Below, one piece after another: positions 32,662 to 37,727 of a stretch of DNA of 64,000 bases; positions within the stretch are counted from its first letter, which is position 1; the number at the start of each line of letters is the position of its first letter. Origin of the DNA: Lachnospiraceae bacterium. Lineage in GTDB: Bacteria; Bacillota; Clostridia; Lachnospirales; Lachnospiraceae. The notes under the pieces are model-generated. The model saw nothing but the letters and a program-made list of their open reading frames with translations. It did not search any database and was not told the DNA's origin. The translations under genes and the position numbers were made by a program. The stretch covers positions 1 through 64,000 of the forward strand of contig JAKSRM010000007.1 in the NCBI GenBank assembly GCA_024403615.1, read 5' to 3'.

Positions 32662-34041
32662 ATGAAAACAATAGATTTTGAACAAAAACAACACATTCAT
32701 TTTATTGGAATCGGCGGCATCAGCATGAGCGCTCTGGCTCATATTCTCTTAGCCCGCGGATTTCAGGTAACCGGTTCAGATTCTAAGGAAAGCGACCTGA
32801 CAAAGGAGCTGGCATCGCTTGGCGCAGTTATCTATATTGGCCAATCTAAAGACAACATCTCTAAAGACATCGACCTTATCGTATATACAGCTGCAATTTC
32901 AAAAGAAAACCCTGAACTGGTTCGTGCACAGGAACTGGGCATTGAAGCCATGACCCGTGCGGACTTTTTAGGCTTACTGATGAAGAACTACGAAACTGCA
33001 ATCTGCGTTTCCGGAACTCACGGTAAAACTACCACCACTTCCCTTATTTCCCAGATTCTGATTGATGCAGAAACGGATCCTACAGTTATGGTAGGCGGCA
33101 TCCTTCCGGCAATCGGTGGAAATATCCGTATTGGTAAATCCGGTAATTTCATTACCGAAGCTTGTGAGTATACCAACAGTTTCCTGTCCTTCTTCCCGAC
33201 AACCGAAATTATCTTAAACGTACAGGCAGATCATCTGGATTTCTTTAAAGACCTGGATGATATCCGTGCTAGTTTTAAGAGATATACCCGCCTGCTTCCA
33301 GACGATGGCGTACTGGTTATTAACGGCGATATTGACAATCTTTCCTACTTTACAGACGGTCTGAAGTGCAGAATCCTTACCTTCTCCTTGAAGGGAAATG
33401 GTGATTTCACGGCTGCCAACATTTCTTATAATGAAACCGCCTGTGCAGAATTTGATGTTCTTTATAAGGGAGAGAACATCACCCACTGCAAGCTCCTGCT
33501 TCCAGGCGAGCATAATATTTATAATGCGCTGGCTGCTTTTGCTTGTGTTTACAGTTTAGGACTTCCTTTAGAAAAGGCTGCAGACTCCATCGGTTCCTTT
33601 ACTGGTGTTGACCGTAGATTCCAGGTAAAAGGAGTTGTAGACGGCTATACCATCATCGATGATTATGCCCATCATCCAGATGAAATCCGTGCAACCCTTA
33701 CCGCAGCTCGGAACTATCCACATAAGAAATTATGGGTTACTTTCCAGCCTCATACCTACACCAGAACCCAGGCGTTCTTAGATGAATTTGCGGATGCTTT
33801 AAGTCTGGCAGACGCTGTGGTTCTTGCAGATATTTATGCGGCAAGAGAGGTGAATACCATCGGAGTTTCTTCGGAAGATATTCAGCAGAGAATCCTCAAA
33901 AATGGCAAGGAAGCATATTATTTCCCAACCTTCGGAGAAATTGAAGAATTTTTGAAAAAAAATTGTTCCAACGGTGATGTGTTGATAACTATGGGAGCCG
34001 GAGACGTGTATTTAGTAGGGGAAAACCTACTTTCCAAATAG
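32662..34041 (+). CDS. murC: UDP-N-acetylmuramate--L-alanine ligase
   Basis: 459 aa. The N-terminal Rossmann motif HFIGIGGISMSALA, the Mur ligase P-loop GTHGKTTTT, and DDYAHHPDEI in the C-terminal domain are intact. It adds L-alanine to UDP-MurNAc using ATP. The ATG fits the family start, but there is no SD and the -10 box ends only eight bases before it, so the mRNA may be effectively leaderless. DnaA-like boxes begin at the base after its stop codon. Confidence 0.96.
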   Translation: MKTIDFEQKQHIHFIGIGGISMSALAHILLARGFQVTGSDSKESDLTKELASLGAVIYIGQSKDNISKDIDLIVYTAAISKENPELVRAQELGIEAMTRADFLGLLMKNYETAICVSGTHGKTTTTSLISQILIDAETDPTVMVGGILPAIGGNIRIGKSGNFITEACEYTNSFLSFFPTTEIILNVQADHLDFFKDLDDIRASFKRYTRLLPDDGVLVINGDIDNLSYFTDGLKCRILTFSLKGNGDFTAANISYNETACAEFDVLYKGENITHCKLLLPGEHNIYNALAAFACVYSLGLPLEKAADSIGSFTGVDRRFQVKGVVDGYTIIDDYAHHPDEIRATLTAARNYPHKKLWVTFQPHTYTRTQAFLDEFADALSLADAVVLADIYAAREVNTIGVSSEDIQQRILKNGKEAYYFPTFGEIEEFLKKNCSNGDVLITMGAGDVYLVGENLLSK

Positions 34042-34208
34042 TTATCCACAGTATCCACAAAATTTCTGGATTATTTCCGTAAACCCTGATTTGGATAAAA
34101 AAATTGTAATTTAGCACTTGACATGCACTATTTAAGCCACTCTTCGGGAGTGGCTTTTTTGTACTTTTTTTCGACCCTATTTTATCCACTTTATCCACAC
34201 TATCCACA
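34042..34208 (+). promoter_or_regulatory. Two tandem DnaA-box arrays
   Basis: Array A: TTATCCACA (34042-34050, perfect) directly followed by GTATCCACA (34051-34059). Array B: TTATCCACT (34182-34190), TTATCCACA (34191-34199, perfect) and CTATCCACA (34200-34208), also head-to-tail without gaps. A reverse near-match (TTATCCAAA) lies at 34090-34098. The consensus DnaA box is TTATNCACA. The AT-rich stretch and the murC terminator lie between arrays. The arrays precede a dnaD-dnaI-like operon, so DnaA control of primosome genes is likely. Confidence 0.75.
34134..34160 (+). terminator. Terminator of murC
   Basis: A perfect 9-bp stem (34134-34142 with 34148-34156), loop TTCGG, then a T run. It lies between the two DnaA-box arrays. 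Confidence 0.9.
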
Positions 34209-34245: not shown

Positions 34246-34274
34246 TTTTCAAATCAAAATTTGTGTGATATAGT
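34246..34274 (+). promoter_or_regulatory. Candidate promoter of the dnaD-dnaI-prs unit
   Basis: TTTTCA (34246-34251), a 17-base spacer and TATAGT (34269-34274) with an extended -10 TGA. It starts about 40 bases after the second DnaA-box array and would give a leader of about 114 nt. I see no known riboswitch in that leader (34281-34394). Confidence 0.5.
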
Positions 34275-34394: not shown

Positions 34395-35555
34395 ATGAGC
34401 AATTTTAAGTTACAACAAGAAGGATATACAAGCACCACCAGTATTCCGAACTGCTTTATTGAAAAATATATGCCAAAGGCTGCCGGTGAGTTTGTAAAAA
34501 TCTATATCTACCTTCTGAAGTGTCTTTCAGAAAATCAGTCAGAGCTGTCTATTTCTAAAATCGCAGATGCTTTTGACGACTCTGAAAAAGACGTTACTCG
34601 TGCCCTCAAATACTGGGAGCGCAAGGGCCTTCTGAAGCTTGAATTTGACGATAAAACTTTGGTATCCCTTCAGCTTATTTCCGCAGCGGAAATGGATGGA
34701 GATTCTAAGGAATCTGTTGCTCAGGAAGCAAAAGAAGAGGTATCCTCCAGCGATGTTGTTACTACGATTGTACGAGATGAAGTTTCTGTTACTCCAGATG
34801 CTTCTCTCTCTGCTAACGACTCCGAAAAAAATACTCTTACTTTTGAAAAGAAACAGTATTCCAAAGAAGAGATCAATGCGTTCTCCCAACAGGAAGATAT
34901 CTACCAGCTCATATTTATCATTGAACGATATACGGGCCATGCTCTTACAGGAACGGATATGAATACTATATTCTTCTTCTATGACACCTTACAGATGTCG
35001 GTAGATCTGATTGAATATCTGTTTGAATATTGCGTAACCCTGGGTAAGAAAAGTATGAGATACATTGAAACAGTGGCGATTAGCTGGGCTGAAAGAGGTA
35101 TCAAAACCGTTAGCGCAGCCAAAACCCTGAACGCCATCTATTCCGACAACTGCTATTCGGTACTGAAAGCTTTTGGTCTTACTGGAAGGCAGCCGGCTAA
35201 GAGCGAGGTTGAATATGTTTCTACCTGGTCACTGTCCTACGGTTACACTCTGGAGTTAATTTTGGAAGCATGTAATCGGACCATAAAAACCATTCACCAG
35301 CCAAGCTTCGAATATGCAGATTCGATTCTCCGCAGATGGAAAGCCAGTGGAGTAAAGTCCATGGATGATGTAAAAGCCCTGGATGAAAAACGAGAAAAAG
35401 CTGTGGCAAAAGCTGAAAATATAGCAAGCAAGAAGAATTATGACGGTACCGGTAATAAATCGGCTGCCGACCGTCCTTCTTCCAACAAATTTACGAAATT
35501 TGACCAGCGCACCTACGACTACGATGCCCTGGAAGAAAAACTGTTTAATTCATGA
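34395..35555 (+). CDS. DnaD-domain replication initiation protein
   Basis: 386 aa. The N-terminal ~85 residues form a winged-helix-like domain (STTSIPNCFIEKYMPKAAG; DVTRALKYWERKGLL). An acidic, low-complexity linker (about 100-150) follows, then two consecutive DnaB_2/DnaD C-terminal-like helical modules (about 150-220 and 230-325; the second has SYGYTLELILEACNRTI and ILRRWKASGVKSMDDV). In Firmicutes, DnaD and DnaB proteins bridge DnaA and the helicase loader at origins and restart sites. Its stop overlaps the next ATG (ATGA), so the two products are coupled. SD is GGAG. Confidence 0.88.
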   Translation: MSNFKLQQEGYTSTTSIPNCFIEKYMPKAAGEFVKIYIYLLKCLSENQSELSISKIADAFDDSEKDVTRALKYWERKGLLKLEFDDKTLVSLQLISAAEMDGDSKESVAQEAKEEVSSSDVVTTIVRDEVSVTPDASLSANDSEKNTLTFEKKQYSKEEINAFSQQEDIYQLIFIIERYTGHALTGTDMNTIFFFYDTLQMSVDLIEYLFEYCVTLGKKSMRYIETVAISWAERGIKTVSAAKTLNAIYSDNCYSVLKAFGLTGRQPAKSEVEYVSTWSLSYGYTLELILEACNRTIKTIHQPSFEYADSILRRWKASGVKSMDDVKALDEKREKAVAKAENIASKKNYDGTGNKSAADRPSSNKFTKFDQRTYDYDALEEKLFNS

Positions 35556-36520
35556 TTTCACGAACTGCTTTTGAAAACATATTAAAAGAATATGACGCAA
35601 AGCAGCTGGCATCCCAAAGAGACCTTCAGGAGCGCCGGGAGATGATTGACCGTCAAGTTCCCCGGCTGAAGGAAATCGATAAGGAAATCGCTGCTCTGTC
35701 TGTGGAAAAAGCGATCCGCAGAATCCGGGGCGGTTCTTTGGATAGTTACTATGAAAAGATGGATGGCTTAAAAGAAGAAAAAGCCTCTCTTCTAGCTCTG
35801 TCCGGTTTTTCCTTAGAAGACTTAGAGCCACGCTATGAATGTTCCAAATGTAAGGATACCGGTTACATTGGCAACGAATTATGCAGCTGTTTTAAAAGCC
35901 GCATTACGGATGTGCTCTACGATCAGTCCAACATCAAGGAAATTCTAAAGGATGAGAATTTTAATACCTTCTTCTTTAAGTACTACCCTACCGGACCGGC
36001 TCTGGAGAATGCAGAAAAAGCCGTAGAGGCTGCCAAAGCTTTTGTCCGGGACTTTGATAAGGGCCCTTCCAACCTCTTCATTTCCGGAAACACCGGTGTT
36101 GGAAAAACCTTCCTTACCAACTGTATTGCTAAGGACCTTATCGATAAAGGATATTTTGTGGTTTATTTATCCGCGATTCGTTTATTTGATATATTATCAG
36201 ATGCTGCGTTTGGTTCCGGAAAGGCCGAAACAGACTCTGTATCTGCTGATTATATGAAAAAAATAATTTATAATTCTGACCTACTTGTTATTGACGATTT
36301 AGGTACCGAGATGGTAAACTCTTTTACTAGCACACAGTTGTTTAACTGCGTAAATGAGAGACTGCTGAAGGACAAACATACCATCATTTCTACCAATTTC
36401 TCATTGAAGCAATTACAGGAAAACTATTCCGAAAGACTTGTTTCCAGAATAGTTAGCCGATACACCTTAATCCGGTTACTCGGCGACGATATCAGAATGA
36501 AGAAAAAGTTGGAGGCTTAA
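35552..36520 (+). CDS. DnaI/DnaC-like helicase loader ATPase
   Basis: 322 aa. A helical N-terminus is followed by a zinc-binding cluster C97-x2-C100-x10-C111-x-C113, as in Bacillus DnaI. The AAA+ domain has Walker A GNTGVGKT (179-186), Walker B LLVIDDLG (244-251) and a sensor region with TIISTNFSL. It should load the replicative DnaB-type helicase with help from the DnaD-like protein encoded just upstream. prs starts one base after its stop. Confidence 0.9.
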   Translation: MISRTAFENILKEYDAKQLASQRDLQERREMIDRQVPRLKEIDKEIAALSVEKAIRRIRGGSLDSYYEKMDGLKEEKASLLALSGFSLEDLEPRYECSKCKDTGYIGNELCSCFKSRITDVLYDQSNIKEILKDENFNTFFFKYYPTGPALENAEKAVEAAKAFVRDFDKGPSNLFISGNTGVGKTFLTNCIAKDLIDKGYFVVYLSAIRLFDILSDAAFGSGKAETDSVSADYMKKIIYNSDLLVIDDLGTEMVNSFTSTQLFNCVNERLLKDKHTIISTNFSLKQLQENYSERLVSRIVSRYTLIRLLGDDIRMKKKLEA

Positions 36521-36521
36521 C

Positions 36522-37727
36522 ATGCTGCGTGAAGAGATCGTAATTAATTCTATTCCGGTTGGACCTTTAGGGATTATCTCTCTGAAAGGTTGTTCCGAAC
36601 TGGGAGCAAGTGTAGACAGTTACATTACCAGATGGCGTAAAAACCGTCAGACAGATTTAAAGGGAAGCATTGCTTTTGCTGGTTATGAAAAAGATTCTTT
36701 CCTTATTGGTGCAGATACCCCTCGTTTTGGTTCTGGTGAAGCAAAAGGTGTTATCAAAGAAACTGTCCGCGGTAAAGATATATTCCTTTTAGTTGATGTT
36801 TGTAACAACAGCATCGAATATGACATGGCTGGTTATAAAAACCACATGTCCCCAGATGACCATTTTCAGGATCTGAAGAGAGTCATCGCAGCTATCGGAG
36901 GAAAGGCAAGACGTCTTACCGTCATTATGCCATTCTTATATGAGAGTAGACAGCACAAGAGAACCGGCCGCGAATCATTAGATTGCGCCATGGGTCTGGA
37001 TGAGCTTTACAATATGGGAGTCGACAACCTGATCACTTTCGACGCCCACGACCCTAGGGTTATCAATGCTGCTCCTTTAAATGGATTTGAATCCATCAAG
37101 CCTTCTTATCAGTTCTTAAAGAACCTTTGCAAATACGAAAAGGATCTGAAGTTCGATAAGGATCACTTGGTAATGATCAGTCCAGATGAAGGCGCCATTG
37201 ACCGAAGCGTTTACTTTGCCAGTGTCCTAGGCATTGATATGGGCATGTTCTACAAGAGACGTGACTATTCGCAAGTTGTAAACGGTTCAAATCCTATCGT
37301 TGCACATGAATATTTAGGAATCGACCTAGCTGGAAAGGATTGTATTGTCGTAGATGATATGATTTCTTCTGGTGGAAGCATGATCGATACCGCCCGTGAC
37401 CTTAAAGCACGTGGCGCAAATCGCGTATTTATCTTTGCTACCTTTGGTCTTTTCACAAATGGCATGGAAAAATTTGATAAAGCTTACGAAGACGGTTTGT
37501 TCACTCGTATTCTGACTACTAACTTAACCTACCAGAGACCTGAACTTCGTGAGAGAGAGTACTTCACAAGTGTTGATATGTCTAAGTACATTTCTTACAT
37601 TATTGATACCCTTAATCACGATGCTTCCATCAGCGATTTATTGGATCCGTCAACGAAGATCAAGAATTTAGTAGCGCGGTACAACGCTGGACAGCTTTCT
37701 GCCAACGATATCGACGAGTTAGAGTAA
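36522..37727 (+). CDS. prs: Ribose-phosphate pyrophosphokinase, long divergent form
   Basis: 401 aa against about 315 for classical Prs. Recognisable PRPP synthetase motifs are ITFDAHDPRV (173-180), PDEG (221-224), KRRD (245-248) and the phosphoribosyl-binding VVDDMISSGGSMIDTA (276-291). The flexible-loop and C-terminal regions are divergent, and the DLHA-x-QIQGFF segment is replaced by DAHDPRVINAAP. It makes PRPP from ribose 5-phosphate and ATP for nucleotides, NAD and amino acids. It has a GGAGG ribosome site and follows the primosome genes directly. Confidence 0.88.
   Translation: MLREEIVINSIPVGPLGIISLKGCSELGASVDSYITRWRKNRQTDLKGSIAFAGYEKDSFLIGADTPRFGSGEAKGVIKETVRGKDIFLLVDVCNNSIEYDMAGYKNHMSPDDHFQDLKRVIAAIGGKARRLTVIMPFLYESRQHKRTGRESLDCAMGLDELYNMGVDNLITFDAHDPRVINAAPLNGFESIKPSYQFLKNLCKYEKDLKFDKDHLVMISPDEGAIDRSVYFASVLGIDMGMFYKRRDYSQVVNGSNPIVAHEYLGIDLAGKDCIVVDDMISSGGSMIDTARDLKARGANRVFIFATFGLFTNGMEKFDKAYEDGLFTRILTTNLTYQRPELREREYFTSVDMSKYISYIIDTLNHDASISDLLDPSTKIKNLVARYNAGQLSANDIDELE

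Follow-up and report, generated by a model that had tools for sequence, protein, structure and literature searches.

Except in a few models, it is little understood how cells match the supply of helicase loaders to that of the initiator. Among the closest described systems, all cited here from extracts of the respective papers, Escherichia coli DnaA prefers two close boxes that are 2 or 3 bp apart, as seen by ChIP-seq (PMC11317965). The E. coli nrdAB genes are activated at low and repressed at high DnaA-ATP, and in Caulobacter, DnaA boxes are predicted upstream of dnaB, the gene for the replicative helicase (PMC8203912). Class I CRP sites follow a periodicity of ∼10.5 bp, with positions at about −61.5, −71.5, and −82.5 (PMC6301791), and Lac loops in vivo were fitted with helical repeats of ∼11 bp (10.9–11.6 bp; PMC8501960, PMC1762422).

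The window (the whole stretch of 64,000 nucleotides that was analyzed) contains two gap-free arrays of DnaA-type boxes in front of a dnaD-dnaI-like operon. The genes and box elements of this locus are as follows:

32662..34041, + strand: murC, UDP-N-acetylmuramate--L-alanine ligase (TIGR01082, 463 bits)
34042..34059, + strand: distal array, two DnaA-type boxes with zero gap (TTATCCACA GTATCCACA), read directly
34090..34098, − strand: inverted near-box, TTATCCAAA on the − strand (TTTGGATAA in + strand letters), at +48 from the distal array
34182..34208, + strand: proximal array, three DnaA-type boxes with zero gap (TTATCCACT TTATCCACA CTATCCACA), read directly
34395..35555, + strand: DnaD-domain primosome gene, 386 amino acids (PF07261, TIGR01446)
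35552..36520, + strand: DnaC/DnaI-like helicase-loader ATPase, 322 amino acids (NF005304/PRK06835, 339 bits)
36522..37727, + strand: PRPP-synthetase-like gene, directly downstream of the helicase loader (NF005299/PRK06827, 572 bits)

The profile matches agree with the initial annotation, which had placed the arrays between murC and genes for a DnaD-like protein and a helicase loader. The loader also matches DnaC and DnaI, but more weakly and under their cut-offs. Its gene overlaps the DnaD-domain gene by 4 bp, and we assume that the PRPP-synthetase-like gene is co-transcribed with the two. On the other side, the stop codon of murC (34039–34041) directly adjoins the first distal box.

Direct reading of the sequence bears out the pair and triplet of near-perfect boxes described initially. 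The five boxes start at 34042 (TTATCCACA), 34051 (GTATCCACA), 34182 (TTATCCACT), 34191 (TTATCCACA), and 34200 (CTATCCACA), all on the + strand; two are without mismatch, and three have one mismatch each. Within each array, neighboring boxes are exactly 9 bp apart, and the first proximal box is located 140 bp from the first distal box. Two perfect copies and a reverse near-match between the arrays had likewise been reported, and the near-match is the element at 34090–34098. The mutual phasing of the arrays, their phasing to the promoter, the position of the inverted box at +48, and an overlap with terminators in relatives go beyond that annotation.

Clustered matches to TTATNCACA exceed chance, although single boxes are not rare. 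The window contains 74 single boxes with at most one mismatch (62.75 expected). At the same tolerance per box and on both strands, it contains three gap-free pairs versus a mean of 0.005 (maximum 1) in 200 dinucleotide shuffles, and one gap-free triplet versus none. The shuffles rule out a chance origin of the gap-free arrays, and it is the gap-free arrangement only, not the number of boxes, that is remarkable. In the genome of the organism itself (1.67 Mb, 87% complete), the exact pattern TATNCACNNTATNCAC has four matches, three at the dnaD locus and one within an open reading frame on contig 25; its reversed control has none. A scan of this genome therefore did not reveal many equally dense clusters. 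The fourth exact pair (L001 1501–1516, G000:C25:118868-118883) lies in an open reading frame with membrane segments, and homologous frames in L124–L126 and L130 likewise carry a gap-free pair.

Clustered DnaA boxes close to primosome genes resemble a replication origin. The organism's own dnaA, however, is found on another contig (C25:102768-104096), surrounded by scattered boxes and followed, by reading of the gene order, by a dnaN-like gene. GC skew was followed in one relative, G129, on a contig of 3,589,629 bp that has dnaA at its start and the arrays at 3,332,538. In 20 samples of 15 kb, the skew is positive in the first 7 after dnaA and negative in the other 13, including both sides of the dnaD arrays, so that there is no switch at the array locus. 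The arrays thus neither adjoin dnaA nor coincide with a GC-skew switch, as far as skew in G129 is concerned, and we rejected their reading as the main origin (oriC). This agrees with the initial annotation, which had seen no dnaA or dnaN in the window and had considered a regulatory or titration site more likely than the main origin. The same two observations, dnaA with its scattered boxes on a different contig and the uniformly negative skew around the arrays of G129, make a secondary or cryptic origin extremely improbable. Gap-free boxes do occur at some origins. Among 11 dnaA loci examined, only 6 of which include true sequence upstream of dnaA, gap-free pairs are absent from these 6 (L011, L226, L227, L229, L231, and L233). 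Two other relatives, L142 and L155, have gap-free pairs in both directions at their dnaA locus.

The arrays recur upstream of dnaD in relatives, so that the absence from close relatives considered in the initial annotation does not apply. Among 61 genomes (the organism and 60 relatives), 58 have a dnaD match, and in 31 of these 58 an exact gap-free pair lies no more than about 600 bp upstream of that gene, with pattern and dnaD matches paired by eye. The 31 comprise the organism itself, 10 of 12 genomes of the genus, 14 of 22 from other genera of the family, and 6 of 23 from other families of the order. The 61 genomes contain 142 exact matches, 59 of them at dnaD, compared with 36 genome-wide for the reversed control. 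Within the family, the exact pattern is found somewhere in 218 of 250 genomes; a further search for arrays covered 156 genomes with a pattern match, beyond the matches listed in that scan. Outside the order, a gap-free pair near a DnaD-domain gene was found, among the matches listed, in one genome (G375, by coordinates).

Named records with a related dnaD are mostly Lachnospiraceae by label. Named loci whose upstream sequence spans 350 bp or more were collected via dnaD rather than via the arrays. Of these 67 loci, 65 contain a perfect box and 52 contain a gap-free pair; two gap-free arrays are found in 35 and are absent from 32. Perfect boxes at these loci are located 174 times on the strand of dnaD and 5 times on the opposite strand. 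The most common offset between boxes is 9 (98 cases), followed by 21 (22), 12 (17), 18 (16), and 23 (15). An exact gap-free pair on the strand opposite dnaD within 600 bp was found in none of 80 named loci. For the spacing analysis, 168 loci with a dnaD match were reduced to 153 by dropping 15 that were duplicates or had <350 bp upstream. The 153 loci consist of the 67 named loci, 58 that were fetched around arrays, and 28 others; 106 of them have two arrays, including 53 that had been fetched for having arrays.

Between the proximal array and dnaD, a promoter is predicted:

34246..34251, + strand: weak −35-like hexamer TTTTCA (promoter prediction, family profile)
34266..34274, + strand: extended −10 element TGATATAGT of the dnaD promoter (predicted), 84 bp from the first proximal box

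Of the 106 two-array loci, 102 have an extended −10 element resembling TGNTATAAT (at least 8 of 9 positions) between the proximal array and dnaD, compared with 17 of 106 shuffled ones, whereas the −35 region is weak across the family profile. Measured from the first proximal box, this element is about 63, 73, 84, 94, 104, or 115 bp away in nearly all loci; the distance exceeds 120 bp in 4 of 102 and is 109 bp in one. These distances form a ladder with a period of ∼10.4 bp (R = 0.85, n = 102; 0.87 without distances >120 bp, n = 98), and the window is positioned on the 84-bp rung (34266). The phasing is seen in named loci (R = 0.89, n = 35), triplets (0.93, n = 40), and clean pairs (0.86, n = 31), whereas the distance from the −10 element to the start codon, which served as control, gives R = 0.15–0.16. 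In simulations on the DnaD tree, the observed R was reached in 0 of 1000 Brownian runs and in 0, 0, and 2 of 1000 runs of the jump models; at least 29 rung changes are required on the tree. The boxes therefore stand in a fixed relation to the predicted promoter of their target gene (R = 0.85–0.87) and, as in class I activation, are located upstream of the −35 region in helical steps of ∼10.5 bp. Some loci without two gap-free arrays still have single boxes ∼81 and 58 bp from the −10 element.

The two arrays are also phased to each other. First-box distances between them range from 77 to 199 bp over the 106 loci and fit best to a period of 11.3 bp (R = 0.63), with rungs near 77, 88, 98, 108, 121, 132, 141, 155, 166, 176, 188, and 199 bp. 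This holds for named loci (R = 0.74, n = 35), pair–pair loci (0.62, n = 62), and pair–triplet loci (0.65, n = 42), compared with 0.17–0.20 for the control distance from array to start codon. The first-box anchor is the first of several that were tried; R is 0.49 with last boxes and 0.21 with array centers, as would be expected if arrays of two and three boxes are mixed. None of 1000 Brownian runs on the DnaD tree reached the observed R in either of two settings, and the Brownian maxima were 0.29 for the array–array and 0.29 for the array–promoter ladder. Of three jump models, two never reached the observed R, and a model of few large jumps gave p = 0.023. Among 53 tree-disjoint pairs of loci, the 24 that differ by at least 5 bp favor whole turns (p = 0.019), and at least 37 rung changes are needed on the tree. 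We also considered whether the ladders are an artifact of the 9-bp register, caused by gain or loss of boxes, and ruled this out, as the phasing persists in arrays of one size and in clean pairs. Across the loci, the distance between the two sites thus varies in helical-repeat steps, as found for DNA loops; this result depends on the anchor and is less strong under the most demanding null model (p = 0.023). The periods of the two ladders fit the published ones, ∼11 bp per turn for Lac loops in vivo and ∼10.5 bp for class I CRP sites.

One orientation of the boxes, phase to the promoter, and phase between the arrays together point to a regulator that would touch RNA polymerase and bridge two sites. 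DnaA is the likely binder, since the repeated unit is the DnaA box and the organism's own DnaA is complete; it is full-length, and its domain IV resembles that of solved DnaA proteins. Binding of the repeats by another protein is very improbable. An additional motif, TT[TGA]ACATAA, is enriched near the arrays (27 in 40 kb versus 15 in 652 kb), as might be expected for a second factor, but the unit of the arrays is TTATCCACA, the DnaA box itself, and the organism's DnaA keeps the domain IV motif GNRDHTTILH.

We consider it fairly probable that DnaA occupies both predicted arrays, bridges them by looping out the short DNA in between, and touches RNA polymerase from one constant side of the helix. 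The levels of the DnaD-like and DnaI-like helicase loaders would then depend on how much DnaA is present or on its nucleotide state. It is from sequence that we infer DnaA as the binder, the reading of the phasing as loop and polymerase contact, and the sign of control. For the sign, we favor activation, because the extended −10 element is conserved, the −35 region is weak, and the array is centered about 75–100 bp upstream of the predicted start. In these features, the position of the array and the weak −35 with an extended −10, the dnaD promoter resembles class I activator promoters. DnaA on the proximal array would thus activate the dnaD promoter, whereas the distal array might stabilize the complex or, at high DnaA, turn the promoter down.

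Repression would also be consistent with a constant helical face toward RNA polymerase. DnaA on both arrays might act as a looped repressor of the dnaD operon, as a ladder of operator distances of ∼11 bp is classic for repression loops such as that of Lac (extracts of PMC8501960), and DnaA is known to activate as well as repress genes, according to its level and bound nucleotide (extracts of PMC8203912). However, the proximal array in the window leaves the promoter uncovered, as it lies upstream of the weak −35 element at a distance of about 40 bp. Its phasing to the −10 element in one-turn steps of ∼10.4 bp and the combination of a conserved extended −10 with a weak −35 are activator-like, and we regard repression instead of activation as unlikely.

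The initial annotation had left the choice between a regulatory and a titration site. Titration without promoter function, as at datA or at the DnaA-box clusters of Bacillus subtilis, might be expected for dense boxes that appear to be of high affinity. The locus is also origin-proximal, and hence copied early, in complete relatives: dnaA and the DnaI-like gene are about 44–520 kb apart where both are on one contig, the identity of the latter being assumed where no array is listed beside the match. However, titration needs neither helical phase to a promoter, nor a single orientation, nor a position between gene end and promoter. Because the array is in helical phase with the predicted promoter, the regulatory part of the earlier proposal holds, whereas titration as the main function is quite improbable.

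In addition to the loop proposed here, the distal array appears to have a second role in relatives. In 93 of the 106 two-array loci, it begins 0–4 nucleotides after the end of the upstream open reading frame. The heptamer TGTGGAT follows it in 95 of 106 loci, mostly with subsequent T runs; of the 84 longer spacers, 70 have the heptamer at +47 or +48. Folding of three selected relatives gave a strong hairpin between box 2 and the inverted box, ahead of a T run (z = −7.2, −5.3, and −7.1), a predicted intrinsic terminator with TGTGGAT as its 3′ arm. The presence of TGTGGAT in 95 loci suggests a wider terminator role in relatives. A simple terminator finder gave no hit for 99 of 106 loci, a consequence of its restriction to short loops. 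Since the distal array would also be part of a terminator hairpin in many relatives, transcription arriving from upstream probably uses the same stretch of DNA there as the DnaA complex. In the window, the inverted box is located at exactly +48 but is decayed, and two further elements were found in the spacer:

34118..34126, + strand: partial form TTGACATGC of the recurrent spacer motif TT[TGA]ACATAA (motif comparison with relatives)
34134..34161, + strand: separate intrinsic terminator between the arrays (predicted; fold −15.8 kcal/mol, z = −2.31)

We do not claim the distal array of the window as a terminator, given its weak box hairpin (z = −0.39) and the separate terminator. The recurrent motif is ∼29-fold enriched upstream of dnaD (27 in 40,139 bp versus 15 in 651,576 bp, on that strand). 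Its two positions relative to the distal array, +62 and +73/74, differ by one helical turn. The reading of this motif as a −35 element was rejected, since the aligned loci have no −10 element at a distance of 17 bp.

The arrays had been described as a feature of the dnaD locus, which stands for this locus but is too narrow for the family. In relatives, two gap-free arrays are also found upstream of hpf, encoding the S30AE ribosome hibernation factor, at 15 loci (L136, L138, L145, L154, L159, L161, L163, L170, L172, L181, L185, L193, L197, L199, and L218), with a spacing of 97 bp in 12 and of 75, 76, and 86 bp in the others. This arrangement suggests that DnaA may control ribosome hibernation in relatives; the organism's own hpf, for which no array was found, would not be included. 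Gap-free pairs are occasionally found upstream of trmB as well (tRNA methyltransferase; array-oriented, at about 1907 in L132 and about 2010 in L134), in addition to the dnaA locus of the two relatives mentioned above. A primosome-specific account leaves the hpf arrays unexplained. It is conceivable, if somewhat unlikely, that the whole forms a self-closing circuit, in which looped DnaA would drive the operon for the DnaD-like and DnaI-like proteins, which themselves act on origin-bound DnaA. Freshly synthesized DnaD would dock on DnaA at its own promoter and close the feedback. The distal half would double as the murC terminator, and the design would extend to hpf and thereby link initiation capacity to growth arrest across the Lachnospiraceae.

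DnaA feedback on primosome genes through gap-free 9-bp arrays had initially been considered unusual. The boxes upstream of Caulobacter dnaB provide a precedent for DnaA control of a replisome gene, according to the extract of PMC8203912, whereas the zero gap does set the locus apart. Close pairing of boxes is shared with the double DnaA boxes of E. coli, whose targets, in the available part of PMC11317965, include replication and nucleotide genes. The E. coli pairs, however, are 2 or 3 bp apart, in contrast to the dominant gap of 0 bp upstream of dnaD, and the dnaD arrays come in twos that are phased mutually and to a promoter. In B. subtilis, likewise a Firmicute, DnaA acts as a transcription factor at box clusters; the eight sets listed for its direct regulon in the available text are without dnaD or dnaB-dnaI (PMC8203912). 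The same text contains the word “loop” 0 times, whereas a loop is proposed here for dnaD. E. coli nrdAB also has DnaA boxes upstream of a gene that supplies replication, but in the available account these are three boxes with no known two-array loop, and the target is ribonucleotide reductase (PMC8203912). In the partly available literature on Lachnospiraceae DnaA boxes, DnaA loops, DnaA with hpf, and clostridial DnaA regulons, we found no account of the dnaD site, and a DnaA-dependent loop at dnaD would be undescribed as far as this literature was searched.

If the proposed loop is correct, a major family of gut bacteria has its primosome operon directly under DnaA, and both loop phase and promoter phase have been kept by natural variation through dozens of length changes. 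The arrangement shares with class I CRP promoters an activator site that is moved upstream in one-turn steps with a period of ∼10.5 bp (extracts of PMC6301791), although the putative activator at dnaD is DnaA on multi-box arrays. With the repression loops of Lac and AraC, it shares the in vivo period of ∼11 bp, in loops of about 60–160 bp. Whereas the periods of Lac and AraC were obtained from engineered spacers (extracts of PMC8501960, PMC1762422), that at dnaD emerges from natural variation between species, a rare natural experiment, since genomes themselves supply the kind of spacing series that has normally to be constructed for Lac or CRP.
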